Shown one piece after another: positions 30,042-62,016 of a DNA stretch of 64,000 nt. The notes under the pieces were generated by a model that was not told where the DNA came from, did no database searches, and saw only the letters and a program-made list of their open reading frames with translations. A program made the translations under genes and the position numbers. Origin of the DNA: Nitratireductor luteus (lineage in GTDB: Bacteria > Pseudomonadota > Alphaproteobacteria > Rhizobiales > Rhizobiaceae); assembly GCF_026162365.1 (NCBI RefSeq), contig NZ_JAOANW010000006.1:62001-126000 (forward strand). The letters are read 5' to 3'. Each line of letters begins with the position of its first letter. The first letter of the stretch is position 1.

Positions 30042-31121
<1,080 letters not shown>

Positions 31122-31142
31122 GTCAGACCCTCCCTTCCCCGG

Positions 31143-33159: not shown

Positions 33160-33192
33160 GGTCCGAGCCCTCCGATGCCCGTTCTGTGCTGT

Positions 33193-33222
33193 GGCGGGAC
33201 CCGAAAGTCCTCGGGCCCCGCC
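33193..33222 (-). other. intercistronic hairpin after sugar binding-protein gene
   Basis: GGCGGGACCCGA (33193-33204) and TCGGGCCCCGCC (33211-33222) form a 12-bp stem with one wobble position and a 6-nt loop. It lies 21 bp after the binding-protein stop and about 33 bp before the permease start. No T-run follows, so it probably shields upstream mRNA and lowers permease expression. Confidence 0.72.
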
Positions 33223-33243
33223 GGTCGCTTGCAGCTATCGGTC

Positions 33244-34512: not shown

Positions 34513-34565
34513 TCCGTTCTCCTCCCTGATTTGCAGGTCTTCCAGTTGGGGATCCATGGCCCCGG

Positions 34566-36634: not shown

Positions 36635-37674
36635 TCAGATACTTCCGTGATGCGGCCCGTCGAAGCAGAGCGGGCAATTGCGTCAATCAAGTGATGAGCG
36701 GCCAGCGCCGCGCGGCCCGAAGCGACAGGCGGGCGCCCGTCGGCCAGGGCACTTGCGAAATCCTCGATGATCGCCTGGTGCCATTCATGGGTAAACGCCA
36801 TCGGGTCGGCTCCGCCGCCGGTGCCGGCGGTGGCACCGAAGCTTTCCTCGCGTCCGTCGCGCCAGCGTACGGTCAAGACTCCGGAGCCGAGATGCAGGCT
36901 GGCTTTGTCGAAATGCAGCGTAATGGTTTCGGCCCCGCCGGGGAAACTGGCGGTGCTGGCTACCAGCGAGCCCACGGCGCCGTTTGCGAAGCGCAGCCCC
37001 GCGGTGGCAAAGTCCTCCGATTCCATCCGGTGAAAGCGCGACGTCGCGGTCATGGCCTGCACCTCGGCAACCGGACCGGCAAGGCCGAGCGCCAGGTCGA
37101 TCGTGTGAATCGCCTGCGAAATCAGCACCCCGCCCCCATCGCGCGCATAGCTGCCGCGCCCCGGTTCGTCATAATAGGCCTGCTCGCGCCACCAGGGCAC
37201 GGTGATCTCGGCCAGGCCAAACGCGCCCAGATCGCCCGAGGCCGCCAGTTCGGCAGCTTTGCGCGAGGCTGCCCTCATCCGGTGCTGGAAGAAGATGCCG
37301 AGCGCCACCCCCGCCTCCTCGCAAATCCGCACAACCTCTTCTGCTTCGGCAGACGTGCGGCCCACAGGCTTTTCCAGCAGGATATGCTTGCCCGCGCGGG
37401 CCAACGGCTCAACCAATGCCACTCGGGCATCGGGCGGCGTGGCAATAACGGCGAAATCCACTTCATCGTCGGCGGCGATGGCGGCGATATCCGGGTAGAC
37501 CTGCAAGGGTTCGCCCCCCGCCGCTTCGGCAAAGGCGCGCGCGCTTTCCATGCGGCGGGCTGCCACCCCCTTGAGCCGGACACGCGGCGCGGCAGCCCGG
37601 AGGGCGGCCAGATGAGTGCGGGCCACCATACCCGTGCCCACCAGCGCGCAGGTCAATCGATCGCTTTCGACCAC
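36631..37674 (-). CDS. Gfo/Idh/MocA family oxidoreductase (3)
   Basis: A 347-residue dehydrogenase with CALVGTGMVARTHLAALRAA (Rossmann), HILLEKPVGRTSAEAEEVV (EKP), and GGVLISQAIHTIDLALGLAG (catalytic His). The start codon is GTG at 37674, preceded by GGGAGGATATG. It is the first gene of the eight-gene operon, 143 bp from the divergent GntR gene. The substrate is unknown; with the other two it could run successive oxidation, isomerisation or reduction of a sugar acid. Confidence 0.87.
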   Translation of the reverse strand: MVESDRLTCALVGTGMVARTHLAALRAAAPRVRLKGVAARRMESARAFAEAAGGEPLQVYPDIAAIAADDEVDFAVIATPPDARVALVEPLARAGKHILLEKPVGRTSAEAEEVVRICEEAGVALGIFFQHRMRAASRKAAELAASGDLGAFGLAEITVPWWREQAYYDEPGRGSYARDGGGVLISQAIHTIDLALGLAGPVAEVQAMTATSRFHRMESEDFATAGLRFANGAVGSLVASTASFPGGAETITLHFDKASLHLGSGVLTVRWRDGREESFGATAGTGGGADPMAFTHEWHQAIIEDFASALADGRPPVASGRAALAAHHLIDAIARSASTGRITEVSE

Positions 37675-46228: not shown

Positions 46229-47116
46229 TCAGGAGAGATGGCGCCTGAACCAATCCACCGTCCGTTGCCAGGCGAGTTCAGCCGTCTCTTCGTCATATCG
46301 CGGTGTCGAGTCGTTGTGAAAGCCGTGGTTCACGCCCGGATAGATATAGGCCTCGTAGGTCTTGCCGTGTTCCTTCAAGGCTGCCTCGTACTCCGGCCAG
46401 CCTTCGTTTATGCGGGTGTCGAGCTCGGCATAATGGATCAGCAGGGGCGCCTGGATATGCGGAACGTCCTCGGGGCGCGGCTGCCGTCCATAAAAGGGAA
46501 CCGCCGCGCCCAGTTCCGGATAGGCGACCGCCGCCGCATTTGCGACCCCGCCACCATAGCAGAAACCGGTGATGCCCACATTTGCGGTCGTCGCATCATG
46601 CTCCATGAGGAATTCGATGGCCGCGAAGAAATCGTTCATCAGCTTCTCGGGATCGATCTGCCGCTGCAATTCACGCCCCTTGTCGTCATTGCCGGGATAG
46701 CCGCCGACAGAGGTCAGCCCGTCGGGGGCCAGCGCCACGAAGCCCGTCTTCGCAACACGGCGTGCCACGTCTTCGATATAAGGGTTGAGCCCGCGGTTCT
46801 CATGGACCACGACGACACCCGGCACAGCGCCTGTAGCGTCCGAGGGACGTACGAAATAACCGCGTACCTCGCCATGGCCTTCAGGAGAGGGATAGGTGAT
46901 ATACTCGGCAACGATGTCCGGATCGGTGAACTCCACCTGCTGCGCCAACGCGTAATCTGGGCTCATCGCCGCCAGTATCGTTGTCGCCGTCATGCCGCCG
47001 ACGGTGAACTTTGCAGCGCGATCGAGAAACTCGCGCTTGGTGATCTTTCCATGAGCATAGTAATCGTAGAGTTCTAGCAATCCAGGGTGAAAGTCCTTTG
47101 CCGACAAACGTCTCAT
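46229..47116 (-). CDS. dienelactone hydrolase family protein (1)
   Basis: A 295-residue alpha/beta hydrolase. An N-terminal part of about 60 residues (with a hydrophobic stretch FTVGGMTATTILAAMSPDYA) may export it. The nucleophile is Cys186 in GFCYGGG; the acid is the Asp in YAELDTRINEGW, and the His is in GVNHGFHND. It could open lactones formed in aromatic degradation. It follows the galD-like gene by 183 bp on the same strand, with a palindrome upstream. Confidence 0.85.
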   Translation of the reverse strand: MRRLSAKDFHPGLLELYDYYAHGKITKREFLDRAAKFTVGGMTATTILAAMSPDYALAQQVEFTDPDIVAEYITYPSPEGHGEVRGYFVRPSDATGAVPGVVVVHENRGLNPYIEDVARRVAKTGFVALAPDGLTSVGGYPGNDDKGRELQRQIDPEKLMNDFFAAIEFLMEHDATTANVGITGFCYGGGVANAAAVAYPELGAAVPFYGRQPRPEDVPHIQAPLLIHYAELDTRINEGWPEYEAALKEHGKTYEAYIYPGVNHGFHNDSTPRYDEETAELAWQRTVDWFRRHLS

Positions 47117-47179
47117 GGATATCTCCTAGCGCTCGAGAGGAAATTGTACGTTAAAAGCGGGCTATTTGGACGTCAAATT

Positions 47180-47193
47180 ACTTATCGGTAAGT
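47180..47193. promoter_or_regulatory. 14-bp palindrome upstream of hydrolase gene
   Basis: ACTTATCGGTAAGT reads the same on both strands apart from one mismatched pair. It lies 63 bp upstream of the hydrolase start in A+T-rich DNA. It may be an operator for a regulator not identified here; a T-run on the plus side gives it some terminator character. Confidence 0.35.
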
Positions 47194-47299
47194 TTTTCTC
47201 TCAGGCGGCATCGTTCAACTGAAAATTATACTAGGCTCTTCCTTACTTCGAACAGATGCATGGGCTGACGGCAACCCACGAACGGCCCTCGGCACCCGT

Positions 47300-48361
47300 C
47301 TATGGCGCGGGGAAGACAATGCCGTCCATCAGCTTGCGGGCGGTACGCAATATGGCAGTGGATCGAACAGTACCCACTTCGTCCAGTGATGCGATGACCG
47401 TCATTTCGCCGGTCGGGTGCTCGATGGAAAGGTTGCGTTCTCTGCCTTCGCCCCGCTTGGCCATCTCGTAGGCGACGGAGCCCTCGGTCAGGCAGGCCGT
47501 GGCGACGCTGACCGCGCCGAGCACCCCGATAGCCTTGTGACAGCGATGCGGGATGAAGGTTCGCGTGGAAATGGCACCGCCCGTTTGCGCCTCGCAAATC
47601 ATCGTCATTTTCGGCACGGATTGCTCGGAGACGTCGCCGAGATTCATCTTCCTGCCGCAGACAAGCCGGATCGCCTCCAGCCTTTCGCGCAAGGCAGAAT
47701 TGGCTTCCAGTTCAGCCGGCGTCTCGCGTCCGGAAATACCCATGTCCCGCGCCGCCATGAGGACGCAGGGCATGCCGTTGTCGATCATGGTGACCTGAAC
47801 GCCTTCCACCATGTCGGCGGCATGTCCGGTTGGCAGCAGCGCGCCGCAACTGGAGCCCGCTGTATCCTTGAATTCGATGGGAATGGGAGCTGCCAGCCCG
47901 GGCACACCGTCGATATGCGCCCCACCTTCGTAACACGCGCGCCCGCCGGGCGACGCAACCCGCGCCACCGCCACCTGACCGCTGTTTTCATTGTATATCG
48001 TGACCGGCGTTTCGCCGTCACACGCCGCCACCAACCCGCGCTCGATGGCGAATGGGCCGACGCCGGCCAGAATGTTTCCGCAGGTCTGTGAGGCCGACAC
48101 CAGCGCCTGATCCACAAAGACCTGCAGGAACAGATAGTCGATATCGACCCCCGGGCGCTCCGACCTGGCGACGACGGCGACCTTGGAGGTCAGCGGGTCC
48201 GCTCCGCCCATGCCGTCGATCTGGCGAGGATCTGGTGATCCCATGATCGAAAGCAGCAGAGCATCGCGCTCGGCAGCGTCGGAAGGAAGGTCGTCGGCAA
48301 GGAAATAGCCGCCCTTCGAAGTACCCCCGCGCATCCACATGGCGCGAATGCCGTCAGACAT
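47300..48361 (-). CDS. galD: 4-oxalomesaconate tautomerase (PrpF/GalD family)
   Basis: A 353-residue PrpF-fold isomerase. Family motifs: [19 protein letters not shown] at the N-terminus, [17 protein letters not shown] with the catalytic Cys, [19 protein letters not shown], and [12 protein letters not shown]. GalD interconverts keto and enol forms of 4-oxalomesaconate in gallate/protocatechuate degradation. It shares an operon with a CHA aldolase and a GalB-like hydratase, which fixes the assignment over general PrpF. It overlaps the aldolase gene by 8 bp. Confidence 0.87.
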
Positions 48362-49046
48362 ATTTCAGGCCCTTCTCGGCAAGGCGCTCGCGCATTCCGT
48401 ATATGTCGAGGCCGAGTTCGCCTTTCTCGAAACGCGCGCGTTTTTCCGCCTCCTTGGCCTCGCGGGCGAGCGCTTTTTCCAGCACCGATGCGGCTTCCTC
48501 GCGCCGCACGACGCAAACGCCATCGTCATCGGCGACGATGACATCGCCCGGATTGACAAGCTCGCCGGCACATACAACCGGAACGTTGACGGACCCGAGC
48601 GTCTCCTTCACCGTGCCTTGCGCGAAGATTGCCTTCGACCAGACGGGAAACCGCATCTCCGTCAGGTCGCGCACATCGCGAACACCAGCGTCAATCACAA
48701 GACCCCGGCAGCCACGTGCCTTTGCGGAAGTGGCGAGCAGGTCGCCGAAATAGCCGGCATCGGACGGAGAAGTGGGGGCGAGCACCAGCATATCGCCTTC
48801 CCTGATCTGTTCGATGGCGACATGGAGCATCCAGTTGTCGCATGGGGGCGCGGAAATAGTGACCGCGGATGCGGCGATCCGGGCGCCGGAATAGATCGGG
48901 CGCATATGGGCTGCCAGCAAACCTTTCCGACCCTGTGCCTCATGCACGGTAGCGACTCCGCATTCGCCAAGGCCGTCAATAACGGCCTGCTCGGCACGCT
49001 CGATATGCTGGACGACGACGCCCGCTCCCATCGTGGAACCGGCCAT
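48354..49046 (-). CDS. ligK: 4-carboxy-4-hydroxy-2-oxoadipate aldolase
   Basis: A 230-residue class II aldolase of the RraA-like HMG/CHA family. The substrate and metal site is in [20 protein letters not shown] followed by IDAGVRD, with the family G-D-L and R-D residues. It cleaves CHA to pyruvate and oxaloacetate and may also decarboxylate oxaloacetate, the last step of protocatechuate 4,5-cleavage. Its start codon overlaps the stop of the GalB-like gene (TGATG). Confidence 0.88.
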
Positions 49047-49780
49047 CAGAGCTCATCCACCGTTCGAGGAAACACCGACTGGAAACCCTCAGCGTATCTT
49101 GCCGGCCGGCCGCCTGCCTGTCCGCCGGAATTGCGGCGGAAATGGTTGCCGCGGTTCTCCGCTACATTCGTGTAGTACGCCCACAAGTGCTCCTGGCCTT
49201 CCATGCACTCGATTGCGGCGCGCTTCTTGTCCCACACCTCGGTGATGTCCAGGAACACGTCGGGCTTCCAGCCCATCTGCTCGGTCTGGTGCGGCTCAAA
49301 CAGATAGAGCTGCGGCGCGCCGAGCACCTTGTCTCCCGGCTTGTGCCCCCAGGCCTGCGCGACCATGCGGCACTCGAGCACGAATTTCGTCGTGTTCATA
49401 TGGTCCGTATTGTACGGGTCCCACATGGAATGGCTCATCATGAAGGCCGGCTGCACCGACCGAATGAGATCCACCGTGCGCTCGCGTGCCTCCGCCCCGA
49501 GATCCAGCGGGTAGTCGCCCAAGTCGAAGAATTGGATATCGTGGACGTCAAGCGCCTTGGCGGCTGCCTCGGCCTCCTTTTGCCGCGCAGCCTTGACTTT
49601 CTCCAGCGTAGTGCCTTCCTGCTTCCACAGCTTGGCGCTTTCCCCGCGCTCTCCAAACGAAAGGCAAGCCACGGTTACATCGTAGCCCAACTTTTGGTGC
49701 AACGCGATCGCACCACCGCAACGCCAGACGAAGTCAGCCGCGTGGGCGCTGATCACCAATGCCGTCCTATTCGCAGTCAA
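49046..49780 (-). CDS. galB: 4-oxalomesaconate hydratase (PIG-L family, GalB)
   Basis: A 244-residue member of the LmbE/PIG-L fold. The usual AHPDDE motif is AHAADF (residues 12-17, [20 protein letters not shown]), as in GalB. The second metal region is [14 protein letters not shown], and the C-terminal [20 protein letters not shown] also matches. GalB adds water to 4-oxalomesaconate to give CHA. It is first in the three-gene set, divergent from a LysR-type gene 125 bp away. Confidence 0.88.
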
Positions 49781-49864
49781 GTCGGCTCTCCTCCAACAAA
49801 TACTGCTTTCTTTTCTCCCCTCTCGCTCGCAATTGCCATTTCAATGGGACGCCGATCCCATAAG

Positions 49865-49875
49865 TTTTTGCTACA
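49865..49875 (+). promoter_or_regulatory. shared TTTTTGCTACA motif (site 1)
   Basis: The 11-mer TTTTTGCTACA lies in the galB/LysR divergent promoter, 30 bp before the LysR start. The same 11-mer in the same orientation occurs before the other LysR gene (55835-55845). It may be a common promoter element or binding site. Confidence 0.4.
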
Positions 49876-49905
49876 CTAGTTTTGGCTCGATGAAGGGACC
49901 CTCCT

Positions 49906-51165
49906 GTGATCCGTTTGAACCTCCGTCACCTGCGCGCCTTTGCCCAAGTTGCCGCTACCGGCAGTATTTCGGCCGCCTCCGGGAAGGTCTTCCTTTCCCA
50001 GCCGGCGATAACCCAGGCGCTGGCCAAGCTTGAAGAAGCCATCGGCACGCCGCTGTTTCTGCGCAAGAGCACCGGCATGTTCCTGACTGAGGCGGGTGAA
50101 TTGCTGCGTGCCCGGGTGGATCGGGCGCTGTTTATCCTGGCCCGTGCCGCACGGCGCGTAGTGCGTAGCGGGCGTTCGAAATCCGCCGGCTTTGCGAACT
50201 TCGATCATCTTCTGACGACGGTTCAACTACGGTGTTTTCTGGCGCTTTGCGAAACCGGGAATTATTCTTGGTCGGCCAGGAACCTCGGAGTATCCCGCCC
50301 TTCGGTCCACAGGGCCATCAATGACTTGGAGCGCATATCCGGAATTCAGCTCTTTACCAGATCCGCTCAAGGCTTCGAGCCTACTCACGCCGGCGATGCC
50401 CTGCGCCAAAGCGCGTTGCTGGCGTTCGCCGAACTCAAGCAGGGGCTGGAGGAGGTCAGTATGCTGCTGGGTCGCGATACCGCGCGGATCGTCCTCGGCT
50501 CCCTTCCCCTGGCGCGCAGCTTCATTCTCCCCAAGGCGATCAACGATCTTTCCGCGATACGGCCGGATGTCCGGATCGAAGCGCGCGATGGTGCCTATAA
50601 AGATATGTTGCACGCCCTGCGCTACGGCGAAATGGACATTCTCATCGGCGCCCTAAGAGATCCCCTCCCAGTGGACGATGTCGTGCAGGAGGAACTGTTT
50701 GTCGACAGGCTGGCCATAGCCGCGCGCGCCGGCCATCCACTTGCGGGCAAGAGGCGACTGGGTGCGGATACGCTCGCTCAATTCCCTTGGGTGACTCCCT
50801 CGCCCAATATCCCGACCCGTCAACATTTCGATGCGTTGTTCGAAAATGCAGCGCGGCCTGCGCCGGACAGGATTGTCGAAACGAGTTCCCTGATACTGAT
50901 CCGTGGTCTGCTGCTTGGCAGTGATCGCCTGACCATCATTTCCCGGCACCAGATCGCAGGGGAGCTGGAAGAGGGCGTTCTGACGACATTGGACTTCACG
51001 CTCGATGGTTCAGACCGCCCCATCGGCATCACTACGAGGCGCGACTGGTCGCCGACTGCTACACAATCTCTCTTCTTGGATCTCCTCAGGGAAATATGCT
51101 CCGGTAACATGACCTGGATGCAAATGAAAAAGGCCTCGCACACCGCGGTACGAGGCCTGACCTAA
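49906..51165 (+). CDS. LysR-type regulator with two tandem HTH domains
   Basis: A 419-residue regulator, about 110 residues longer than usual. Two winged HTH units are visible: residues 5-65 (HLRAFAQVAATGSISAASGK, FLSQPAITQALAKLEEAIG) and 104-165 (QLRCFLALCETGNYSWSARN, GVSRPSVHRAINDLERISG). One LysR effector domain follows (about 190-400). The start codon is GTG at 49906, after GAAGGGACC. Such double-headed proteins are uncommon; it probably controls galB-ligK-galD. It is followed by a convergent hydrolase gene after 21 bp. Confidence 0.85.
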   Translation: MIRLNLRHLRAFAQVAATGSISAASGKVFLSQPAITQALAKLEEAIGTPLFLRKSTGMFLTEAGELLRARVDRALFILARAARRVVRSGRSKSAGFANFDHLLTTVQLRCFLALCETGNYSWSARNLGVSRPSVHRAINDLERISGIQLFTRSAQGFEPTHAGDALRQSALLAFAELKQGLEEVSMLLGRDTARIVLGSLPLARSFILPKAINDLSAIRPDVRIEARDGAYKDMLHALRYGEMDILIGALRDPLPVDDVVQEELFVDRLAIAARAGHPLAGKRRLGADTLAQFPWVTPSPNIPTRQHFDALFENAARPAPDRIVETSSLILIRGLLLGSDRLTIISRHQIAGELEEGVLTTLDFTLDGSDRPIGITTRRDWSPTATQSLFLDLLREICSGNMTWMQMKKASHTAVRGLT

Positions 51166-51186
51166 TGCTTCATCACCCGGACCGGC

Positions 51187-51849
51187 TCAGCCGATCAGGT
51201 GTTCCTGGAAGAAGGTCCGTGTGCGGGCGTGGGCTTTTGCCGCGACTTCAGGGATGTAAGAGGGGCGGGCGTCATTGGCGAAGGCATGGCCCGCCTTATA
51301 GGTATGGACCTCCAGCTCGGGGAAATAGGCTTGGGCCTCGGCCAGCACCTCAGCCGGGACGTGATCGTCCTCGGTGCCCCAATGGCCCTGCATCGGCGCC
51401 TTGAGCGGACGATCAAGATATTGCGGCAGGCGCGTGCCGTAGAAGGCGACCGCGGCGCCGATATCCAGCGTTTGCGCAGCGCGGATCGCCAGACCGCCGC
51501 CCCAGCAGAACCCGATCACCCCAACCTTGCCACCGTTCCTGGCAAGCACCGCCACGGCGGCGGCGACATCCTGCATCGTCTCGTCGAGTTTGGCAGCCAG
51601 CATCAGATCGCGGCCTTTGGGGCCTTTGTCGAAGGGCACGACGACACCGCGTTCCTGCCGGTCGAACAACGCCGGAATCGCCACTTCGTAGCCGAGCGCG
51701 GCGTAAGTTCTGGCCACGCCCTTGAGCTGGTCGGTCACGCCGAAGATTTCCTGGAGGATGACGATTCCCCCTTTGCGTTCGCCCTGGGCGGGCTCGATCC
51801 AGCAATCGAAACGATGGCCATCGGCGGCCTCGATCTGTGTCATCATCAT
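51187..51849 (-). CDS. dienelactone hydrolase family protein (2)
   Basis: A 220-residue hydrolase with the classic triad: Cys115 (GVIGFCWGGGLA), Asp in WGTEDDHVP and His in TYKAGHAFAND. It lacks an export signal and is close in length to ClcD (about 235). It may open carboxymethylene-lactones formed from aromatic or pyrone substrates. It lies downstream of the TAXI binding-protein gene, across a terminator-like hairpin. Confidence 0.86.
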   Translation of the reverse strand: MMMTQIEAADGHRFDCWIEPAQGERKGGIVILQEIFGVTDQLKGVARTYAALGYEVAIPALFDRQERGVVVPFDKGPKGRDLMLAAKLDETMQDVAAAVAVLARNGGKVGVIGFCWGGGLAIRAAQTLDIGAAVAFYGTRLPQYLDRPLKAPMQGHWGTEDDHVPAEVLAEAQAYFPELEVHTYKAGHAFANDARPSYIPEVAAKAHARTRTFFQEHLIG

Positions 51850-51870
51850 TTGGTCCTTCTCAGAAAAGCA

Positions 51871-51897
51871 TGCGCCCCCCTCGTCCGAGGGAGCGCA
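51871..51897 (-). terminator. terminator after TAXI binding-protein gene
   Basis: In the minus-strand transcript, UGCGCUCCCUC pairs with GAGGGGGGCGCA (one bulge, one wobble), followed by TGCTTTTCTGA. A stem with a T-rich tail fits a rho-independent terminator between the TRAP operon and the second hydrolase gene. Confidence 0.62.
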
Positions 51898-51907
51898 TCA
51901 AGTGTGA

Positions 51908-52888
51908 TTATTCGCTGATCGGAATGCCGGCTTCCTCAAAATAGCGCCGTGCGCCCGCGTGATAGGGGACGGCAGAGGCCGGGGCCATGATCTGGGCGTC
52001 GAAGTTCCTAAAGGCGCCAAACGAAGCCTGGAGCGCTTCCTTATTCTCGGCGATGGCCTTGGTCAGCGTATAGACGAGATCTTCGTCGACCTGATTGTTG
52101 GTTATCAGCACCCAGGGAATGCTCATCAGGTTGGCAGCATGGTCCTGTAGCCCGTTGACCTTATCGTTCTGCTCGCGATGCACGAGGTTGCCCGAGGGAA
52201 GGAAGTCCTTGAATGCTGCCGTGCCTTCATCGGACGCGTCGAGCGAGATGTAGCACAGGCCGCCACGATCCTGCAGCTTGACCGAGGCCTGCTGGCCCGC
52301 GCCCGCATTGAGCGAGACCAGCGCGACGTCGACAAGTCCGTCACCTAGCGCGTTTATGCCGGCCACGAAATTGGCCACCGGAACCTGCTGGAAGTCGTCG
52401 TAGCTCAACCCGCCGCTGGCCAGCCCGCCGGCGATGTAGAAGGGGATGATCGTCGAGGAGGTGTATTCCGAGGCGATGCGTAGATCGGCGGCCCGTGCCT
52501 TCACATCGGCGATGGTCGCCAGACCCAGATCGCAAGGCGCCATCATGCCGGTGACAAGGTTGAACATCGTGCCGACGAGCTCGATGCCGGGACTGGCCCG
52601 GTCGTAGTTTCCTGTGCCTGTGACCGCATATTCCGTTTCGACGAGGTTTGAGAAGCCGAAGTCGACCTCGCCATTGCTGATCAGCGGCAGGTAGCCGACG
52701 AGGGGCTGGGTCCGGCCGGTTATCCCGGCATCGTTGGCGATCTTGGCGACGGCCTGCCCAGTATTATAGGCCAGCGAGCCTTGTGCCCCAGAGGCGATCG
52801 TCACCACCTGTGCGTTGGCCGCACCGGCAAGGCCCAGGCTGCCAAGGCTAAGCGCGCCTGCGGCGAGTATGGCATTGAACTTGATCAT
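51908..52888 (-). CDS. TAXI-type TRAP transporter substrate-binding protein
   Basis: A 326-residue periplasmic protein of the TAXI family. The start at MIKFNAILAAGAL follows GGAGGAAACTACTC, and the signal peptide ends near ANA-QVV. Family stretches: VTIASGAQGSLAYNTGQAVA and FGFSNLVETEYAVTG. It pairs with the fused permease encoded just upstream, whose stop overlaps its start by 4 bp. By context it may bind a pyrone or ring-opened aromatic acid. Confidence 0.88.
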   Translation of the reverse strand: MIKFNAILAAGALSLGSLGLAGAANAQVVTIASGAQGSLAYNTGQAVAKIANDAGITGRTQPLVGYLPLISNGEVDFGFSNLVETEYAVTGTGNYDRASPGIELVGTMFNLVTGMMAPCDLGLATIADVKARAADLRIASEYTSSTIIPFYIAGGLASGGLSYDDFQQVPVANFVAGINALGDGLVDVALVSLNAGAGQQASVKLQDRGGLCYISLDASDEGTAAFKDFLPSGNLVHREQNDKVNGLQDHAANLMSIPWVLITNNQVDEDLVYTLTKAIAENKEALQASFGAFRNFDAQIMAPASAVPYHAGARRYFEEAGIPISE

Positions 52889-54810
52889 GAGTAGTTTCCT
52901 CCCTTGGTGTTCACATGGTGGATCTTGCCCCGCAGGGCGAGCGTCAGGCCAAGGAGCAGACACAGCCCTGCCGCTATTTCGTGAAAGGTGACAACGGCTG
53001 GCAGGAAGCCGAGCGGAAGAGCGCAGAGGCCTAGCAGAACGGCAAGCCCGCGCGACGGTCGTTTCAGCGGTCCGCCCCAATGGCCAACGATCCCGGCCGT
53101 GACAGCAACGATGCCGATGATGGCGAGCGCCATCATCACGACTATTGATGTCGCGTCCCCGTCCATCAGAAGTTCGGGTGTGGCCACGAAGAGGAAGGGG
53201 ATGATGAAAGCGGCCCAGCCGATGCGCATCGAGGCGACCCCCGTCAACAGCGGATCGTCTTTGGTGATCGTCGCGGCGGCGAAGGCTGCCAGCGCGACGG
53301 GCGGTGTGATCATCGACAGCATCCCGAAGTAGAGGATGAACAGATGCGCCGCCATGGGCGTGATCCCGGCCTGGACGAGCGACGGCGCGACCAGCGCGGC
53401 CAAAAGCACGTAAACTCCCGAGGTCGGCATGCCCATGCCCAGGATGATGCAGATCGCCGCCGAGACCAGCAGAAGCAGCCCCACGTTCGAACCCACGGCA
53501 TCCACGAGCACCAACGTCAACGCGAAGCCGAGACCGGTTATGTTAAGGACTCCTATCACGAAGCCGGCGGCCGCAACGACCAGGATCAGGTTGATCATCG
53601 CAATGCCGGTGTCGACGAAGACCTGGCCAAGCGTTCGCAGGGTCAGCCGCTCACCGCGATAGCCGCGCAGGAAACCTACGCCGACGATCGCGATCGAGGC
53701 GAACAGCGCGGATTCCTCCGGGTCGAGCCGCCAGACGAACAACGCCAGCAGCAGCACGGCGAAGGGCAGGATGAAATGCCAGCCTTCGCGCAGCACCTGC
53801 CGGGTGGTCAGCCCGTCGGCGTCGGCGGACGAGATCTTATCGCGCGCGGCGATCAGGTCGACCTGCGCAAAGACCGCGAGATAGTAGAGTGCGGCCGGCA
53901 GGAGCGCCGCCCCGGCGACCGCCAGGTAGGGGATGTCGAGAAACTCCGCCATCAGGAAGGCGGCGGCCCCCATGATCGGCGGCGTTAGCTGGCCGCCGGT
54001 GGAGGCCACGGCCTCGATCGCGCCGGCGTCACGTTTGGAATAGCCTCCGCGGTTCATCAGCGGAATGGTGACGACACCTGTGGTCACAACGTTGGAAACC
54101 GCCGAACCCGAGATCGATCCGAACAGCGCCGAGCCGACAACCGAGATCTTTGCGCTTCCGCCCCGCGTCCGGCCGGTGGCCGCCATCGCCAGATCGGTGA
54201 AGAAATTGCCGCCCCCCGCTGCAAAGAGCAATTGTCCGAAGAAAACGAAGAGCATCACGATGATCGTGCCGACCGCCAGCGGGGTGGAGAACACCGCATT
54301 GGGGTCGAAGCCGGCATATTGGACCAGCCGCTCAGGACTCAGTTCCTTGCCGACCAGCCGTCCCGGCACCTTGTCGGCGATGAGCGCATAGAGAAGAAAG
54401 ATGCTGACGATGGAAAACAGCATGAACCCCGCGTGGCGGCGCACACCTTCCAGAACGGCAAGGGTTACGACTGTGCCGATCACGGTGATCTGCCAGGGGC
54501 GATAGGCTTGCTCCTGCAGCAGCCAGGCGAAGTCCCAAGCCGCATACATCAACGTGCCGAAGGCAATCGCCGCAATAGCACCGTCGATCCAGCCGACCCG
54601 CGATTTCTCCTGTCCTTTGAATCCGAAGCGCAGATAAGCGACGGCCAGCGCAATGCCGAGTTGGAAGGCCATGTATTGCTGCGGCAGGATCGCCAGGCCC
54701 AGCCGTGTCGGGGCCTGGATATTCCACAGGATACAGGCGACGATCATCATGCTCGCCAAACCTGCGACAAGGGCTTGGGTAAATGAAAAAGCCTGTCTGG
54801 TCAGGGTCAA
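52885..54810 (-). CDS. TRAP transporter, fused small and large permease
   Basis: A 641-residue fused permease with about 17 helices. The large subunit part shows SGSAVSNVVTTGVVTIPLMN, AVASTGGQLTPPIMGAAAFL and GMGMPTSGVYVLLAALVAPS, typical of TAXI-linked TRAP permeases. The start is taken as TTG at 54810, overlapping the LigI-like stop (TTGA) with GAGGAGG seven bases before; an ATG at 54831 lies inside the upstream gene and masks this. It forms an operon with ligI upstream and the binding protein downstream. Confidence 0.9.
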   Translation of the reverse strand: MTLTRQAFSFTQALVAGLASMMIVACILWNIQAPTRLGLAILPQQYMAFQLGIALAVAYLRFGFKGQEKSRVGWIDGAIAAIAFGTLMYAAWDFAWLLQEQAYRPWQITVIGTVVTLAVLEGVRRHAGFMLFSIVSIFLLYALIADKVPGRLVGKELSPERLVQYAGFDPNAVFSTPLAVGTIIVMLFVFFGQLLFAAGGGNFFTDLAMAATGRTRGGSAKISVVGSALFGSISGSAVSNVVTTGVVTIPLMNRGGYSKRDAGAIEAVASTGGQLTPPIMGAAAFLMAEFLDIPYLAVAGAALLPAALYYLAVFAQVDLIAARDKISSADADGLTTRQVLREGWHFILPFAVLLLALFVWRLDPEESALFASIAIVGVGFLRGYRGERLTLRTLGQVFVDTGIAMINLILVVAAAGFVIGVLNITGLGFALTLVLVDAVGSNVGLLLLVSAAICIILGMGMPTSGVYVLLAALVAPSLVQAGITPMAAHLFILYFGMLSMITPPVALAAFAAATITKDDPLLTGVASMRIGWAAFIIPFLFVATPELLMDGDATSIVVMMALAIIGIVAVTAGIVGHWGGPLKRPSRGLAVLLGLCALPLGFLPAVVTFHEIAAGLCLLLGLTLALRGKIHHVNTKGGNYS

Positions 54811-55709
54811 GACTGTGCCTCCTCGGGCCAATAGAGGCGCATGGGATTGGCGACGAGCAGGGCATGCTGTAGCGCTTCCGTGGGGGCGATGCGCGGAATC
54901 AGATCCGTCAGAAAACCGTCATCCGGCATATGCGATACCATATTCGGATGCGGCCAGTCGGTGCCCCAGAGCACGCGGTCGGGGAATTGTGTCACCAACC
55001 GGAGCGCAAAGGGCACGACATCGTCATAGGGCGGGCCCGCAACGGAAAGACGCTCCGGGCAGGAGACCTTGACCCAGATCCGGGAATTACGCTCCATGAG
55101 ATCGACAAAGCGCGCGAATTCGGGACCGTCGACGCCCTTTGTGACATCGGGCCGCCCCATGTGATCGACCACGATCCTGCCCGGCAGCCGGTCCAGAAGT
55201 GGCGCGACTGATGTAAGGTCCTGCGCCTCGAAATAGACGACGATATGCCAACCGAGGGGCTGAACCCTTTGCGCAATGTGCTCGAACACCTCGTGCGGCG
55301 TATCGTCAACCAGCCGTTTCACGAAATTGAACCGCACGCCGCGAACGCCAGCTTCGTCCAAGTTCTGGAGTTCCGCGTCGGTATTATCCTCGCCTACAAC
55401 GGCGATGCCGCGTGCCAGCCCGCCCGAAGCTTCGAGTGCATCGACGAGAGCCGCATTGTCGCGGCCGTGGCAGGTGGCCTGAACAATCACGTTGCGCGCG
55501 AAGCCGAGACGGTCGCGCAGCCAGAACAGCCGCTCCTTCGGGGCGTCGATCGGCGTATATTTGCGTTCGGGAGCGAAGGGGAAGCGGGAGGCCGGGCCGA
55601 AGACATGGCAATGGGCGTCGACCGCGCCTTCCGGCGGCCGGAAATCAGGTCGTTTCGGCTCTGCGCAAAATGGCAGATAGGTTGAGATCGTCTTCACAGG
55701 GACGGTCAT
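54807..55709 (-). CDS. ligI: 2-pyrone-4,6-dicarboxylate lactonase (LigI-like amidohydrolase)
   Basis: A 300-residue amidohydrolase. The N-terminal motif DAHCHVFGPASRFPFAPERK (His33, His35) and LGFARNVIVQATCHGRDNAA closely follow LigI. The active-site Asp is in VLWGTDWPHPN near residue 247. LigI opens 2-pyrone-4,6-dicarboxylate (PDC) to 4-oxalomesaconate, the substrate of the GalD/GalB genes 6 kb away. The start was set at MTVPVKTIS (55709); a longer frame to 55826 runs into the divergent promoter. Other related lactonases (4-sulfomuconolactonase) are a less likely alternative. Confidence 0.85.
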   Translation of the reverse strand: MTVPVKTISTYLPFCAEPKRPDFRPPEGAVDAHCHVFGPASRFPFAPERKYTPIDAPKERLFWLRDRLGFARNVIVQATCHGRDNAALVDALEASGGLARGIAVVGEDNTDAELQNLDEAGVRGVRFNFVKRLVDDTPHEVFEHIAQRVQPLGWHIVVYFEAQDLTSVAPLLDRLPGRIVVDHMGRPDVTKGVDGPEFARFVDLMERNSRIWVKVSCPERLSVAGPPYDDVVPFALRLVTQFPDRVLWGTDWPHPNMVSHMPDDGFLTDLIPRIAPTEALQHALLVANPMRLYWPEEAQS

Positions 55710-55829
55710 GCCGACGCCCCGTTCAGGTGGTGCTTCATCGCAATCCTCTTCGGTCCCGCCCATGAACGGCAGTGCGCTCCCACGTCCTCCTCGGGGGTTT
55801 TGGGACCGTAGATTTCGAATATACATTTG

Positions 55830-55845
55830 GCAAATTTTTGCTACA
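55830..55845 (+). promoter_or_regulatory. shared TTTTTGCTACA motif (site 2) with dyad
   Basis: TTTTTGCTACA is at 55835-55845, as in the galB promoter. Here it overlaps the perfect dyad GCAAA-TT-TTTGC (55830-55841). It lies 41 bp before the LysR start, between divergent ligI and lysR, and could be a LysR binding site or promoter element. Confidence 0.42.
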
Positions 55846-55886
55846 TCTTAATATCATCATCCAGAATGATAATGATGTGGCACCCA

Positions 55887-56798
55887 ATGCTGAAGACCTT
55901 CGATATGAACCTGCTGCTGGTGTTCAACACGCTGATGGAAGAGCGCAGCGTGACGCGGACAGGGGAACGGTTGGGCCGAACCCAGTCGGCGATCTCCAAT
56001 TCTCTCAAACGCTTGCGGGAGGCGCTTGGCGACCCGCTCTTCGTGCGCGAGGCATCGGGCCTTATGCCGACCCCACGGGCGGAGGCGCTGGCCCCCGAGG
56101 TCGAACAGATCGTCAGACAGACCGAACGCTGTCTGCGGCAGGACACGGAAATCGATCTGGCCACCAATGATGCGCATTTCGTGATTGGTGCACCTGACCG
56201 GCTCAGCCTGCCTGTCTTTTTGCCGTTCATGCGCTATGTGCACGCGATAGCTCCGCATATGCGGCTTGATCTGCGGACCTCCGACCGGGATATATCGATC
56301 CGGTTGCTGGCCAGCGGTGAGATCGACCTGGCCCTCGGCTGGTTCGATGATCTGCCGCCGAGCATGCTGCGTTCGATCGCCTTTTCCGAAGCCTTGGTCT
56401 GCCTGTGCCGCAAGGGGCATCCGATCCTGCGGTCCAAAGGCGCGGTCGATTTCCAGTCGCTTCTGGCCTATCCACATCTCGTGGTTCGCTCGGGCGGGGG
56501 GCGCCACGCCGCCTTTGATGCGATCCTGTCGCGGATCGGCCATGCACGGCGCGTCCAGACCGCCTTGACCAATTTCACCCTGGTGCCGCATCTTTTACGC
56601 GACAGCGATCAGGTCGGTGTCTTCACCAAGCGCACTGCGGACTATTTTGCCGCAAACTACGATCTGGCCGTGATGCCAATCCCGCTGGAAATCGCCCCGA
56701 TCTCGCACGAGATCGTCTGGCACCGCCGCTTCACCAACGATCCCGCCCACCGCTGGCTGCGCGAACAGATCCAGAAAGCCTGCACGGCGGAAAGCTAA
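55887..56798 (+). CDS. LysR-type regulator (NodD/LinR-like)
   Basis: A 303-residue regulator. The HTH is RTGERLGRTQSAISNSLKRL (about residues 24-43) followed by LGDPLFVREASGLMPT. The C-terminal effector domain has HMRLDLRTSDRDISIRLLAS. The start MLKTFDMNLLLVFNTL is the usual one for this group; no strong ribosome site marks any of the upstream ATG codons. It is divergent from ligI-TRAP and is the likely activator of that operon. Confidence 0.85.
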   Translation: MLKTFDMNLLLVFNTLMEERSVTRTGERLGRTQSAISNSLKRLREALGDPLFVREASGLMPTPRAEALAPEVEQIVRQTERCLRQDTEIDLATNDAHFVIGAPDRLSLPVFLPFMRYVHAIAPHMRLDLRTSDRDISIRLLASGEIDLALGWFDDLPPSMLRSIAFSEALVCLCRKGHPILRSKGAVDFQSLLAYPHLVVRSGGGRHAAFDAILSRIGHARRVQTALTNFTLVPHLLRDSDQVGVFTKRTADYFAANYDLAVMPIPLEIAPISHEIVWHRRFTNDPAHRWLREQIQKACTAES

Positions 56799-57390: not shown

Positions 57391-57708
57391 GGCGATTGCT
57401 TTCGTCTCACCTGCAATGGCTGCGGGCTCGCGCCGGCCACCTTTTCCACCGTCCCGGGAACCTGCTTCCAGACCCGATGGTCGATGAGTTCCGGGCCTGT
57501 GACGCTTCCTCCCTGAAGATTGGCGTTTTACCAAGAGGTGAGGAGCGTAGGCCGACAGGGCGGGCAAGTGAATCAGCCAGAGGTCCCGATACGGAAGTAC
57601 CGGTCACGTGATGGACGGCGTGTTGAGCGCCATGACGGCAGTGATGCTTTGGGTGCCATCCTGGGGTATCCTGACAAGTGGCACGGTCTCGGACGGGGAG
57701 AACAGGAG
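57391..57708. other. divergent intergenic region
   Basis: About 318 bp between the HExxH gene and the response-regulator gene. It should hold both promoters. An in-frame extension of the regulator to 57520 lacks receiver character and is judged not coding. No operator or EcfG site was seen. Confidence 0.4.
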
Positions 57709-58368
57709 ATGAAAGTTCTGATCGTCGACGACCATGTGCTGATCCGGGAAGCGCTCCGTGGCGCCCTGAAGGAAATCGTGGACGATGCTGCAATCATCGA
57801 GGCGCCTGACTCGGCTCGGGCAAGCCGGAGCGTGGAGGAAAACCCTGACATTGGACTAATCCTGCTCGACCTCTATCTTCCGGACGGGAGCGGCCTCGAC
57901 TTCCTGGCCGAGTTGCGTGAGCACCATCCCGCGATTGCCGTGGCGGTTCTGTCGGGCAGCGATGACAGGAAGGACATCGCCAGGGCGCTTGAGCTGGGTG
58001 CGGCCGGGTTCATTCCCAAATCGATCCAACGCGAGGTCATGCTCGGTGCCCTGAAGCTGATCTTCTCCGGCGGTGTCTATATCCCTCCCGAATTCCTCGG
58101 GCGGTCAAGGACGGCGCCAACCATGCCGCCGCGAGAAAGGCCGCCCTCGGCTACCGAGCTCGGGCTCACCCGCCGGCAGATGGAAGTGCTCACCCTGATG
58201 ATGGAAGGCAAGAGCAACAAGGCGATCTGTCGTGTGCTCGACATGGCCGAGCCAACGGTCAAAAATCATGTCACTGCAATCCTGAAAGCGCTCAATGTTA
58301 CTAACCGCACCGAGGCGGTCATCGCTGCGGGAGCTCTTGGACTCGGGCGGCAACGGGGCGCGGGTTAG
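57709..58368 (+). CDS. LuxR/NarL family response regulator
   Basis: A 219-residue regulator. The receiver domain has D7/D8 and the phosphorylation site D54 (LILLDLYLPDGSG), with K in FIPKS. The C-terminal HTH (about 145-210) reads LTRRQMEVLTLMMEGKSNKA and MAEPTVKNHVTAILKALNV. It is convergent with the hybrid kinase gene, 21 bp apart, and is its likely partner. The start follows GGGGAGAACAGGAG. Confidence 0.9.
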   Translation: MKVLIVDDHVLIREALRGALKEIVDDAAIIEAPDSARASRSVEENPDIGLILLDLYLPDGSGLDFLAELREHHPAIAVAVLSGSDDRKDIARALELGAAGFIPKSIQREVMLGALKLIFSGGVYIPPEFLGRSRTAPTMPPRERPPSATELGLTRRQMEVLTLMMEGKSNKAICRVLDMAEPTVKNHVTAILKALNVTNRTEAVIAAGALGLGRQRGAG

Positions 58369-58389
58369 TTCGCTCCGAACACCCCGACT

Positions 58390-60867
58390 TCATTCCATCG
58401 AGGGCACAGGCGCTTCCGTGTTCCCGCGCGGCTTCAACGAGCGGCTGAGCATCGCCCTGAGTTGCATTGGCAGAACCGGCTTGTGCAGCAGGTGGATGCC
58501 GTGATCGCGTGCTTCGCGCAGCCCTTCGGGCGCGGTGTCCCCGCTGATCAGGAACGCCGGGATCTCCGCGCCGGACTCGCACCGTATCTGCTCGATTGCC
58601 TGGATTCCAGTTCGACCATTCGCCAGCCGATAGTCGGAGATGATCAGGTCTGGTCGTCTCGCTTCGTCACGAATTTTGGAGCGTGCGGTTTCCTCGGATT
58701 CGGCGCTCAGCAGCCGGCAGCCCCAGCTTTGCAAGATGCTGCGCATCCCTTCAAGCACCAGCGGGTCGTCGTCGATTACGACCACTAGCTTGTCGCGGGC
58801 CGGGTCGGCCACTGCCGGCGAAACCGCCGTCTCGAGCGCGGCTCTGGGTTCGGCGACAAACGGTATCCACACAGAGAAGCGCGAGCCCTGCCCTGGCCGG
58901 GAATCGAACTCAACGGCATGGTCCAGCAGGCGTCCCAATCGCTCCACGATTGTCAGCCCGAGACCCAATCCATCACTCTGGCTCCGGCCGACCGTCGGGC
59001 GTAGAGCGTTGCTGAAGATGTTTCCCTGTTCCTCGACGGGAATACCGGGTCCGCTATCGCAGATGTCGATACGCAAGCTTTCGCCGCGCCGGCGGCACCC
59101 GATGACGACACCGCCACGTTCCGTACAACGCACCGCATTGGAAACAAGGTTCATCAGTATCCGCTCAAGCAGCACGGGATCGCTCCGTACCCAAGCGTCG
59201 CTCCGCACCACCGACAGCCGCAGTCCCTTCTGTTTTGCAGCGCCAGCGAAGGTCATCTCGATGCACTCGAGCGCCCGTTCGACCGGAAACTCCACGACGT
59301 TCGGTTCAAACGCGCCAGCTTCGAGTTTCGACATGTCGAGAAGCGATTCGAACAATTCGTTCATCGAGTTGACGGCCGCATCAATGCGTTCGACAAGACG
59401 ATCTCGATCGGAGGCCTCACCCCCGGCGCGCAACTGCGCGACAAACAGATTCAACGCGTGCAGCGGCTGGCGCAGGTCGTGGCTCGCTGAGGCAAGGAAG
59501 TGCGATTTGTATTTGCTGGCGGCTTCGAGTTGTCGGCTCTTTTCGTTCAATTCGCGGGTCCGTTCCGCGACGAGTTGTTCAAGCCGCGTCGCCGTTTCCT
59601 TGCGCTCTTCAAGCAGTTGTCCCAACTCGATAGCGTTGCGGCGGAAGATTTCCACTGCCTGCGCCATGGCCGCGATCTCGTCGGTTCCCGTTACCGCGAC
59701 CGGCGTGCGCAGCCGCCCGTCGGCGATCGCGAGCATCCCCTCGCTCAACGCAGCCAGACGGCGGGCGATATGGCCGCCGACATAGAGCCAGACTATCAGG
59801 GCCGATGTTATAATACTGAGGACGACGACGGCGACAAGGGCGCGGGTGCTCGACCGCTGTACGGACAGTGCGTCCTGGATCGCCTTGCCGATGTCCCCTC
59901 TGGCTGCGCTTCCCAACTCGTCCACCGCCGCAGTGAGTTCCGCCGACAGACTTGCCGTTCTGGCAATCCCTTCCTCGCCCTCACCGATCAGCGCAAGTTC
60001 TCGCCTGCGGGCATCGATGATCGAGTCCGGCCCCTCGACAAGTCCCTCGAGCCGGGTAGCCTGTTCAAGAAGCAGCGTGCGCAGCCTGGCGTCGAGTCCC
60101 TCCGCCGTAGCCTTCAGCTTGGCGAGGGACAGGCCGATCTGGAAATCGAGAACCGGCAGCCGTTCCGCTTCCTCAGCGGTCGAAGCGTCGGCCAACATGT
60201 CGACGATGGCGGAAGCGTGCCCCTGAGCAGTCTGCGCCAACCGCTGATGCTCGATCGATGAGTTCAGCCGTTCCAGCCGGTTGTCAGGCGCCCCAGCGCC
60301 GTTCTCGGTGAGCTGCGCGATCTCATTGTTGAGCACATTGAGCCATGGTGTGAGCAGGCGCTGTATCTCGGCGTTTGTCCGGTAGACCTCACGCCGCAGG
60401 GTTCGCACTCGTTCGCCGGTCTCGAGGCGGCGCGCTACGATGGCATCGAGCTCGCCGAGGCTTCTCGTCAACGACGAGACAATCAATTCGATATGGCCGA
60501 GCGGCATTCCGTCGGTCCCCTCTCTCAGTTCGAGAAGCATTCCGTTCAAGCGCTTCTCTTCCGCTGCGAGCACGGCCTTGACCTCGTCTCGCCGGCCCTG
60601 ATCGGGTGCTGCCAGCAGCGCCGGCGCCGTGGCGATGATCCGCTCCGCAGAGCGCGATAGCTCGAACGCTGAAAGTGCAGGCGGCACGCGGGTCTCGACA
60701 ACATCGAGGCGGCTGCCTACCTCACGGAAGGCGTAGATTGCCGCAGCTGCAGCCAGCGCGGCGAATGCCGCTATGGCAAAGAATGCAAGCAGCAGCCGTA
60801 TGCGCACCCCGAGGTTCCAAGCTCGGCGCACCTGAATTTTCGTGCCGTCGGGCTGCGATGTTGTCAC
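58390..60867 (-). CDS. hybrid sensor histidine kinase/response regulator
   Basis: An 825-residue kinase. TM1 (about 24-46) and TM2 (343-365) enclose a helical periplasmic sensor of about 295 residues. HAMP is about 366-420, HisKA about 453-520 with H463 (SASHDLRQPLHAL), the N-box NLVSNAVR at 573-580, DSGPGIP at 604-610, and a C-terminal receiver with D745 (LIISDYRLA). It phosphorylates its own receiver and perhaps the convergent LuxR regulator. It is divergent from a TRAP binding protein; the sensor may contact that protein. Confidence 0.9.
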   Translation of the reverse strand: MTTSQPDGTKIQVRRAWNLGVRIRLLLAFFAIAAFAALAAAAAIYAFREVGSRLDVVETRVPPALSAFELSRSAERIIATAPALLAAPDQGRRDEVKAVLAAEEKRLNGMLLELREGTDGMPLGHIELIVSSLTRSLGELDAIVARRLETGERVRTLRREVYRTNAEIQRLLTPWLNVLNNEIAQLTENGAGAPDNRLERLNSSIEHQRLAQTAQGHASAIVDMLADASTAEEAERLPVLDFQIGLSLAKLKATAEGLDARLRTLLLEQATRLEGLVEGPDSIIDARRRELALIGEGEEGIARTASLSAELTAAVDELGSAARGDIGKAIQDALSVQRSSTRALVAVVVLSIITSALIVWLYVGGHIARRLAALSEGMLAIADGRLRTPVAVTGTDEIAAMAQAVEIFRRNAIELGQLLEERKETATRLEQLVAERTRELNEKSRQLEAASKYKSHFLASASHDLRQPLHALNLFVAQLRAGGEASDRDRLVERIDAAVNSMNELFESLLDMSKLEAGAFEPNVVEFPVERALECIEMTFAGAAKQKGLRLSVVRSDAWVRSDPVLLERILMNLVSNAVRCTERGGVVIGCRRRGESLRIDICDSGPGIPVEEQGNIFSNALRPTVGRSQSDGLGLGLTIVERLGRLLDHAVEFDSRPGQGSRFSVWIPFVAEPRAALETAVSPAVADPARDKLVVVIDDDPLVLEGMRSILQSWGCRLLSAESEETARSKIRDEARRPDLIISDYRLANGRTGIQAIEQIRCESGAEIPAFLISGDTAPEGLREARDHGIHLLHKPVLPMQLRAMLSRSLKPRGNTEAPVPSME

Positions 60868-60890
60868 GGCAGATCCGCATTCAGCGTCTT

Positions 60891-60907
60891 TATGCTAGGC
60901 TAGCATA
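60891..60907. promoter_or_regulatory. perfect 17-bp dyad between kinase and TRAP binding-protein genes
   Basis: TATGCTA-GGC-TAGCATA is a perfect 7-3-7 dyad in the 78-bp divergent intergenic region, 24 bp before the kinase start and 39 bp before the binding-protein start. Location suggests one regulator, probably the LuxR-type response regulator, controls both genes. Confidence 0.65.
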
Positions 60908-60945
60908 CCGCCAGAGCTCCTATCGGAGCAAACCGGAGATAACCG

Positions 60946-62016
60946 ATGAGACGGCGAGATGTTTTGACCGGCGCGGGGACGGCCGCAGCGACCTCCAGCT
61001 TTCCATCACCGGCAATCGCACAGGGGGTTCGGCAGCTCACCATGGTGACGGACTGGCCCGAGGGTCCTGGCGTCCTTCCAAGCGCCAGGCGGCTGGCGCA
61101 GACAGTGGCCGATGCATCGAACGGACGGATCACGATAAACGTCACTGCTTCCGGCGCCGTGGTGCGTCCGTTTGAAACCTTCGACGCGGTTCAATCCGGT
61201 GTCGCCGACATGTTCCATTCGCATATCGGTTACTTCGTGGAGAAATCGCCGGCCTTTCACTTCTATTCCGGTCTTCCGTTCGGCATGACGGCGAAGGAAC
61301 TGTTTGCCTGGGTCCGGTTTGGTGGCGGTCAGGAGCTTTGGGACGAGCTGAGCGCCCGGTTCGACATCAAGCCGCTCCTGTGTTCCAGCACGGGCATTCA
61401 GATGGGCGGCTGGTTCCGCAAGGAAATCGCTTCGATAGAAGATATCAATGGGCTGCGTTACCGCATGGCCGAACCCGGCGCCGAGGTCTACCGGCGTCTA
61501 GGCGCAACCGTGGTCGTCGTGCCGGGGGCCGACATCATGCTGTCGCTCCGATCCGGCGCGATTGACGCTTGCGAATGGCTCGGCCCCTGGCTCGACATGG
61601 AGATGGGGCTGCACGAGGTCGCCAGCTTCTACTACTACCCAGCTTGGCACGAGCCGGGGACCGCACTCACACTGGGCATCAACAGGCGCGTGTGGGAAAG
61701 CCTCGAGGAGACCGACAGGCAGCTGATCAAGGTCGCCGCAGCAGGCGAGTATGCCGTTTCGCTTGCGGAGTTCGACACCAACAATGCGCGCGCGTTGGTT
61801 AGGCTGCACCAGGAGAGTGAAGTGAAGTTTCGCAGATTCGATGACGAGATGCTGAAGACCTTTGCCGAGATCAGCCGAAGCGTTGTCGCGGAAGCGGGCT
61901 CTACCGACGCGCTCTCGCAAAAGATCCATACGAGCTACCGGGATTTCCGGGAGACTGCGAAGGGGTGGAGCGACGTTGGCGAAGGCACCTATCTGAACGT
62001 CCGCGACGTCGGCTGA
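60946..62016 (+). CDS. TRAP transporter substrate-binding protein (DctP type), orphan
   Basis: A 356-residue periplasmic protein. The N-terminus MRRRDVLTGAGTAAATSSFP is a twin-arginine-like signal, ending near AIA-QGV. The DctP/TakP fold is shown by LTMVTDWPEGPGVLPSARRL, DAVQSGVADMFHSHIGYFVE and INGLRYRMAEPGAEVYRRLG (with the substrate Arg). No TRAP permease genes are beside it. It may act mainly as a ligand sensor for the adjacent kinase. Substrate probably a 2-oxoacid or related carboxylate. Confidence 0.88.
   Translation: MRRRDVLTGAGTAAATSSFPSPAIAQGVRQLTMVTDWPEGPGVLPSARRLAQTVADASNGRITINVTASGAVVRPFETFDAVQSGVADMFHSHIGYFVEKSPAFHFYSGLPFGMTAKELFAWVRFGGGQELWDELSARFDIKPLLCSSTGIQMGGWFRKEIASIEDINGLRYRMAEPGAEVYRRLGATVVVVPGADIMLSLRSGAIDACEWLGPWLDMEMGLHEVASFYYYPAWHEPGTALTLGINRRVWESLEETDRQLIKVAAAGEYAVSLAEFDTNNARALVRLHQESEVKFRRFDDEMLKTFAEISRSVVAEAGSTDALSQKIHTSYRDFRETAKGWSDVGEGTYLNVRDVG

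Follow-up and report, generated by a model that had tools for sequence, protein, structure and literature searches.

The 4,5-cleavage clusters lig of Sphingobium SYK-6 and pmd of Comamonas share with the locus described here LigI, a 4-carboxy-4-hydroxy-2-oxoadipate (CHA) aldolase, a tautomerase, and the intermediates from 2-pyrone-4,6-dicarboxylate (PDC) on; LigJ is the usual hydratase of their route. The gal cluster of Pseudomonas putida KT2440 and galBCD of Pseudomonas NGC7 have in common with it the GalD, GalB and GalC/LigK trunk and a LysR-type regulator (PMC12314914; statements carrying a PMC number are limited to excerpts of the respective papers). Our locus belongs to Nitratireductor luteus (genome of 4.92 Mb, 99.94% complete) and lies in a stretch of 64,000 nucleotides, hereafter the window, which covers positions 62001-126000 of contig C41; ten genes, spanning 46229-56798 of the window, were tested. 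Unlike lig and pmd, it has GalB, of the PIG-L family, as the hydratase and a TAXI-TRAP transporter adjoining ligI, in a genome that matches neither the LigB family nor LigC; unlike the gal cluster, it has no GalA (PF02900) in the genome, and its LysR-type regulator carries two HTH domains. We consider it somewhat more probable than otherwise that the locus is a PDC utilisation module with TAXI-TRAP uptake, the trunk of which is shared with a second, gallate-type entry. In the open-access literature surveyed, which consisted mostly of titles and the beginnings of abstracts, we found no PDC uptake system, nor any description of a variant that couples a PDC hydrolase to TAXI-TRAP where LigAB and LigC are missing from the genome. 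The predicted features are as follows.

46229-47116, minus strand: YghX-family hydrolase, a neighbour (YghX model)
47300-48361, minus strand: galD, 4-oxalomesaconate tautomerase (NCBIfam OMA_tautomer)
48354-49046, minus strand: ligK/galC, CHA aldolase (TIGR02798, PRK09262)
49046-49780, minus strand: galB, 4-oxalomesaconate hydratase, PIG-L family (solved 5cgz)
49906-51165, plus strand: two-HTH LysR-type regulator, divergent to galB
51187-51849, minus strand: dienelactone-hydrolase-family (DLH) enzyme of 220 amino acids (aa), GFCWG motif
51908-52888, minus strand: TAXI solute-binding protein of a TRAP transporter, signal peptide by eye (TIGR02122)
52885-54831, minus strand: fused TRAP permease, with 54750 as a possible start (TIGR02123)
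about 54807-55709, minus strand: ligI, PDC hydrolase, amidohydrolase family (solved 4d8l)
55823-55870, no strand: pair of imperfect dyads between ligI and the LysR gene, candidate operator
55887-56798, plus strand: LysR-type regulator, divergent to ligI

The conversion of PDC to pyruvate and oxaloacetate is established chemistry for these enzyme families. The initial annotation claimed a full lower pathway of this kind, and curated models (for GalD and LigK) and solved relatives (for LigI and GalB) bear it out. GalD scores 525.5 bits with OMA_tautomer, the cut-off being 440, and 190.6 with the PrpF model, below its cut-off of 440.6; LigK exceeds the cut-offs of both TIGR02798 (385 vs 304.5) and PRK09262 (390 vs 179). 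GalB matches the solved 4-oxalomesaconate hydratase 5cgz with 300 bits over residues 5-243 of 244, and LigI the solved PDC hydrolase 4d8l with 370 bits nearly at full length (residues 13-298 of 299; the start at 55709 was picked by eye after relatives, while the longest frame begins at 55826). The assignment of LigI as a 4-sulfomuconolactone hydrolase was rejected (NCBIfam model, 241 vs cut-off 500). A complete lower pathway from PDC to pyruvate and oxaloacetate is supported by these matches for LigI, GalD, GalB and LigK, and, judged by sequence, each of the enzymes taken individually is an ordinary member of a known family.

The galB, ligK and galD genes follow each other head to tail with overlaps of 1 and 8 nt. 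The TRAP permease gene overlaps ligI by 25 nt and the TAXI gene overlaps that of the permease by 4 nt, the gene of the 220-aa DLH lying 58 nt behind TAXI; because of these overlaps ligI, the permease and TAXI likely share one operon, just as the initial annotation had placed them. A LysR gene diverges from each block: 49906-51165 from galB and 55887-56798 from ligI. The former encodes two tandem HTH domains, and two HTH matches are present in all 49 homologous open reading frames of the LigI loci (window included); the literature listing held nothing direct on two-HTH LysR-type regulators. The latter has a relative beside the cassette of ligI, TRAP and TAXI in the loci L083, L104, L113 and L118. 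The dyads at 55823-55870, partly conserved in five aligned species, are a candidate operator. Two long opposite-strand open reading frames (48339-49175 and 49142-49879), which match no family, were dropped as chance ones. Further along, at 57520-62013, the window carries a TorS-like hybrid kinase, a LuxR-type response regulator and a lone DctP binding protein.

The fused permease clearly exceeds the cut-off of TIGR02123 (528 vs 321), and the binding protein, scored on a longer 390-aa frame, passes that of TIGR02122 as a borderline case (84.5 vs 84.35); its structure model (mean pLDDT 80) matches in fold the solved TAXI proteins, several of which are glutamate-bound. With binding protein and permease both present, the pair is classified by these models as a TAXI-TRAP transporter. 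It is of the same family and fold as VcGluP and the TAXI transporter of Azoarcus CIB, which is said to carry o-phthalate (PMC11574862, citing Sanz 2020) and gives a precedent for a ring di-acid. Unlike either of them, it is linked to ligI, and it also differs from VcGluP in the two main glutamate contacts: the position of Y45 is taken by A or G and that of Q93 by N in 11 of 11 aligned TAXI relatives (two of which, L206 and L210, are not beside ligI), the mapping resting on an alignment that is weak in this part (32.6 bits). Since these contacts are changed, the TAXI ligand is probably not glutamate.

The link between ligI and TRAP genes, from which the idea of import was in part initially drawn, recurs in other bacteria, where it mostly stands in place of LigB. 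Out of 103 LigI loci, 19 were dropped for short flanks; the other 84 had flanks of 4.5 kb at either end, and removal of the near-duplicates L130 and L217 brought them to 82. Within 4.5 kb (a limit that we chose, like the E-value lines for TAXI and LigI), LigB only was found in 54 loci, TRAP only in 14, neither in 14 and both in none (Fisher p = 1.8e-8); with LigB counted anywhere in the flank, the respective numbers are 59, 13, 9 and 1 (p = 1.4e-8). In a quick tree built from 100 LigI proteins (L130, L217 and L214 removed), a supported split (SH-aLRT 96) sets apart 18 of them, two being long branches; this group includes 13 of the 14 TRAP-linked proteins, and no LigB was seen in the available flanks of its loci. 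The order ligI-TRAP-TAXI is seen in eight loci (the window, L070, L083, L096, L099, L104, L113 and L118) and TRAP-TAXI-ligI in two (L208 and L209), and in four (L075, L076, L079 and L080) another TAXI with a different TRAP stands before ligI. As the ligI-linked TAXIs are of two kinds, that of L075 being 25% identical to that of the window, and gene order differs, the association of ligI with TAXI, and with TRAP, seems to have arisen more than once. Two further features of these loci were observed. In L209 (10947-12779) a LigI match devoid of the C-terminal part is joined to a D-2-hydroxyacid dehydrogenase in a single frame of 610 aa, a fusion or an assembly effect, and a DUF1932/NAD-binding protein repeatedly adjoins galD, ligK or ligI (L075:14182-15066 and many LigI loci).

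Both dienelactone-hydrolase-family enzymes that the initial annotation took as a hint of additional lactone substrates are present, and only one of them travels with the cassette. The 220-aa DLH stands beside ligI-TRAP-TAXI in 7 of the 8 loci of that type and is a candidate ester or lactone hydrolase. The YghX-family hydrolase (586 with the YghX model, cut-off 460) is matched at E <= 1e-8 in none of the other LigI loci compared and is not conserved with the cluster.

As for ring cleavage, no LigAB, GalA or LigC gene was seen among the genes of the window, and the search of the remaining genome that the initial annotation called for gave no match either. The LigB family PF02900 (LigB/GalA/DesZ) has 0 matches in the whole N. 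luteus genome, the same search being positive in 4 of 14 named controls; LigC has no match at E <= 1e-20 in N. luteus and none in all 14 cassette or LigB-poor genomes (own included), and its search was positive in 2 of 2 LigB-type control genomes. Three Gfo/Idh proteins at 34566-37674 were rejected as LigC, being only 22-26% identical to PmdC; the one scanned matches an inositol dehydrogenase model below the cut-off. The surrounding part of the window (28811-37674), with mannonate dehydratase, sugar-ABC-transporter-like genes (by eye) and these three enzymes, is probably a sugar-acid cluster. Strong LigB was likewise not found in the genomes G250, G319, G413, Actibacterium pelagium, HKCCE4037 and a Roseicyclus metagenome-assembled genome; Pseudooceanicola HF7 and both Chelativorans have strong LigB genes elsewhere, away from the cassette, and so are not LigB-free. 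Among weak PF02900 hits rejected as LigB, L194 resembles 4,5-DOPA dioxygenases (197 bits against a cut-off of 233) and L204 matches class III weakly; L195, L196, L202 and L203 were judged by eye from sequence.

The absence of ring-cleavage genes, true for the window, does not extend to the genome. Contig C12 carries a row of LigM, DctP-TRAP, formyltetrahydrofolate deformylase and a VOC-type extradiol dioxygenase, the last (L254:9384-10334) being three genes from LigM. LigM scores 658 bits against the cut-off of 580, and 563 bits with the solved LigM 5x1i. The VOC enzyme resembles the catechol 2,3-dioxygenase (type I extradiol) family in its score, just under the cut-off of that model (319.5 vs 320.2), and in three metal-ligand motifs, which we take to be those of type I extradiol dioxygenases and which are kept, by eye, in 7 aligned VOC sequences; unlike that family, its relatives adjoin galB, ligK or galD and the C12 copy itself adjoins LigM. 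The intradiol family PF00775 has five matching places in N. luteus, one pair being PcaHG, above both cut-offs. Thus a dioxygenase elsewhere in the genome, which the initial annotation had listed as part of what would speak against import, does exist, in altered form, since it is of another enzyme family. The operon partners of its relatives suggest gallate or 3-O-methylgallate as its likely substrate, and the gallate and 3-O-methylgallate dioxygenases named in the literature excerpts (GalA, DesB, LigAB and MgaAB) are not of the VOC type.

The scheme we propose is the following. TAXI would capture PDC, or a closely related pyrone or ring-opened di-acid, in the periplasm, and the fused permease would import the captured acid. 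As assigned by family, LigI would open the PDC lactone to 4-oxalomesaconate, GalD would tautomerise the latter, GalB would hydrate it to CHA, and LigK would split CHA into pyruvate and oxaloacetate. The 220-aa DLH may, at a guess, deal with an ester or an open methyl-ester such as CHMOD. The GalD-GalB-LigK trunk probably serves a second entry as well, in which LigM as an O-demethylase and the type I extradiol dioxygenase would act on gallate or 3-O-methylgallate; this is suggested by the operons of relatives.

The distribution of the transporter agrees in part with the scheme. The TAXI of the window is rare (9 of 397 genomes of the order at E <= 1e-60), and LigI at E <= 1.9e-95 accompanies it in 8 of these 9 genomes, the ninth (G345, 71% complete) having a hit of only 1e-40. 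With our own genome left out, 7 of 8 compared to the family LigI rate of 15 of 151 gives 7e-7, the rate coming from another sample and the cut being set afterwards.

Several observations, on the other hand, weigh against PDC uptake as the role of the locus. TAXI is beside ligI in only three of the nine TAXI genomes (own, G319 and G413); in G162, G181, G270, G299 and G345, all of which have strong LigB, it lies elsewhere, and G250 carries it on another contig (some contigs in these genomes are short), so that the transporter may carry something else there. TRAP and LigB do occur together in L070, 5.3 kb apart. The TRAP label changes only five times on the LigI tree, the loci being related, and a paired test of the LigB/TRAP exclusion on supported branches gave three independent pairs (sign test p = 1). 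N. luteus has a second TAXI-TRAP on C41, about 22-36 kb past the window (L008:2246-15643), in a cluster with gentisate-dioxygenase-like and salicylyl-CoA-hydroxylase/benzoate-CoA-ligase-like genes and, some 22 kb beyond the end of the window, a LigM/DesA-like protein that stays below both cut-offs; by analogy, the TAXI of the window may import an aromatic acid, and TAXI in this organism may mean aromatic-acid import in general. Because the VOC/LigM pair and PcaHG are present, PDC might also arise inside the cell. Finally, both PDC as the ligand of TAXI and its import by TAXI-TRAP are inferences.

The strongest alternative, in our estimate rather unlikely, is that PDC is indeed made inside. The TRAP transporter would import an aromatic precursor, LigM would convert it to 3-O-methylgallate or gallate, PDC would form either by cyclisation of CHMOD, to which the VOC enzyme would cleave 3-O-methylgallate, or from gallate by the action of PcaHG, and LigI together with the DLH, acting as a CHMOD methylesterase like DesC/MgaC, would return both products to the trunk. 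PcaHG was reported to make PDC from gallate in P. putida and, as a minor activity, in A. baylyi (PMC12481942), CHMOD cyclises to PDC spontaneously with a half-life near 70 min (PMC12314914, PMC8091115), and the alpha/beta hydrolases DesC and MgaC are given as CHMOD esterases (PMC8091115, PMC12314914). The genes of N. luteus listed above fit this route, and so do those of its relatives. G105 has TAXI-TRAP-ligI-VOC-galB-ligK-galD in one row, and the VOC gene and ligI-TRAP are neighbours also in G101, G413 and HKCCE4037 (L113), an arrangement that suits intracellular PDC formation as well as PDC uptake. VOC is present in all 14 tested cassette or LigB-poor genomes (including G105, the source of the query, to which the N. 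luteus copy is 89% identical) compared with 40 of 151 genomes of the family (E <= 1e-100). Of 13 distinct VOC loci analysed, eight (L075, L079, L113, L209, L255, L257, L258 and L259) have galB, ligK or galD as its immediate neighbour, the others being L076, L254, L256, L260 and L262, and LigM/DesA relatives occur around it in L254, L255, L257, L260 and L263 (the same genome as L076). Among 22 LigI genomes of the family (E <= 1e-50), strong LigB (E < 1e-55) and VOC are nearly exclusive: 13 have VOC only, 7 LigB only, 1 both and 1 neither, although the hits in seven of the 22 (G020, G033, G035, G041, G047, G107 and G140) are 39-49% identical and may not be true LigI.

Yet the VOC operon of N. 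luteus has its own DctP-TRAP, so that no additional importer of that substrate would be required, and, as L254 has no adjoining galB, ligK or galD, the enzyme is tied to the window by orthology only. Most VOC genomes of the family have no LigI: a hit at E <= 1e-50 is found in 14 of the 40 and lacking in 26, from which the VOC route seems not to require PDC hydrolysis. The two systems are also separate in Pseudooceanicola HF7, where ligI-TRAP-TAXI with LysR (L083) lies apart from VOC-galBKD (L259), and in Chelativorans salis, which has galB-ligK-galD twice, once together with VOC, DctP-TRAP and DesA/LigM relatives (L255) and once with ligI, TAXI-TRAP and DLH (L096). In our view, a self-contained module with its own importer, supplied with PDC from outside, fits best.

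It is quite improbable, we believe, that the LigI-like enzyme and the TRAP transporter are devoted to some other lactone, ester or di-acid, PDC not being the natural substrate. The specificity of LigI could have drifted, its group being on one side of the supported split, a lactone or ester hydrolase is present within the operon, and the TAXI ligand is probably not glutamate; against this stand the full-length match to the solved PDC hydrolase, the score of the alternative lactonase model, far under its cut-off, and the neighbouring GalD, GalB and LigK, which suit the LigI product. That the locus is a chance juxtaposition of two halves of different history, with no joint function, is very improbable indeed: the halves have separate divergent regulators and, by DNA identity, different closest kin (Chelativorans shares 90% identity with 47304-51103, and for 51908-56783 the nearest of eight loci compared is that of Pseudooceanicola HF7 at 74%, Chelativorans reaching 70-71%), but the same halves are contiguous in both Chelativorans loci and are neighbours in L070, L113 and L118.

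PDC, which also derives from lignin, is a plant product, found at 0.1-2% in Rosoideae genera and making up 1-1.7% of strawberry leaf dry matter (PMC9415522), as well as a sought polymer building block. On a wider scale, we propose tentatively, with a confidence slightly below even, that the cassette of ligI, TRAP, TAXI and DLH, assembled more than once with dissimilar TAXIs, lets bacteria without LigAB and LigC live on PDC from plants or lignin degraders, and that a type I extradiol dioxygenase, as a non-homologous replacement of LigB, cleaves gallate-type rings in these same bacteria. The candidate dioxygenase offers a second clear enzymatic test, and a named candidate for the importer makes PDC scavenging testable, which is relevant to strains engineered to release PDC and suggests that cross-feeding may take place between lignin degraders.

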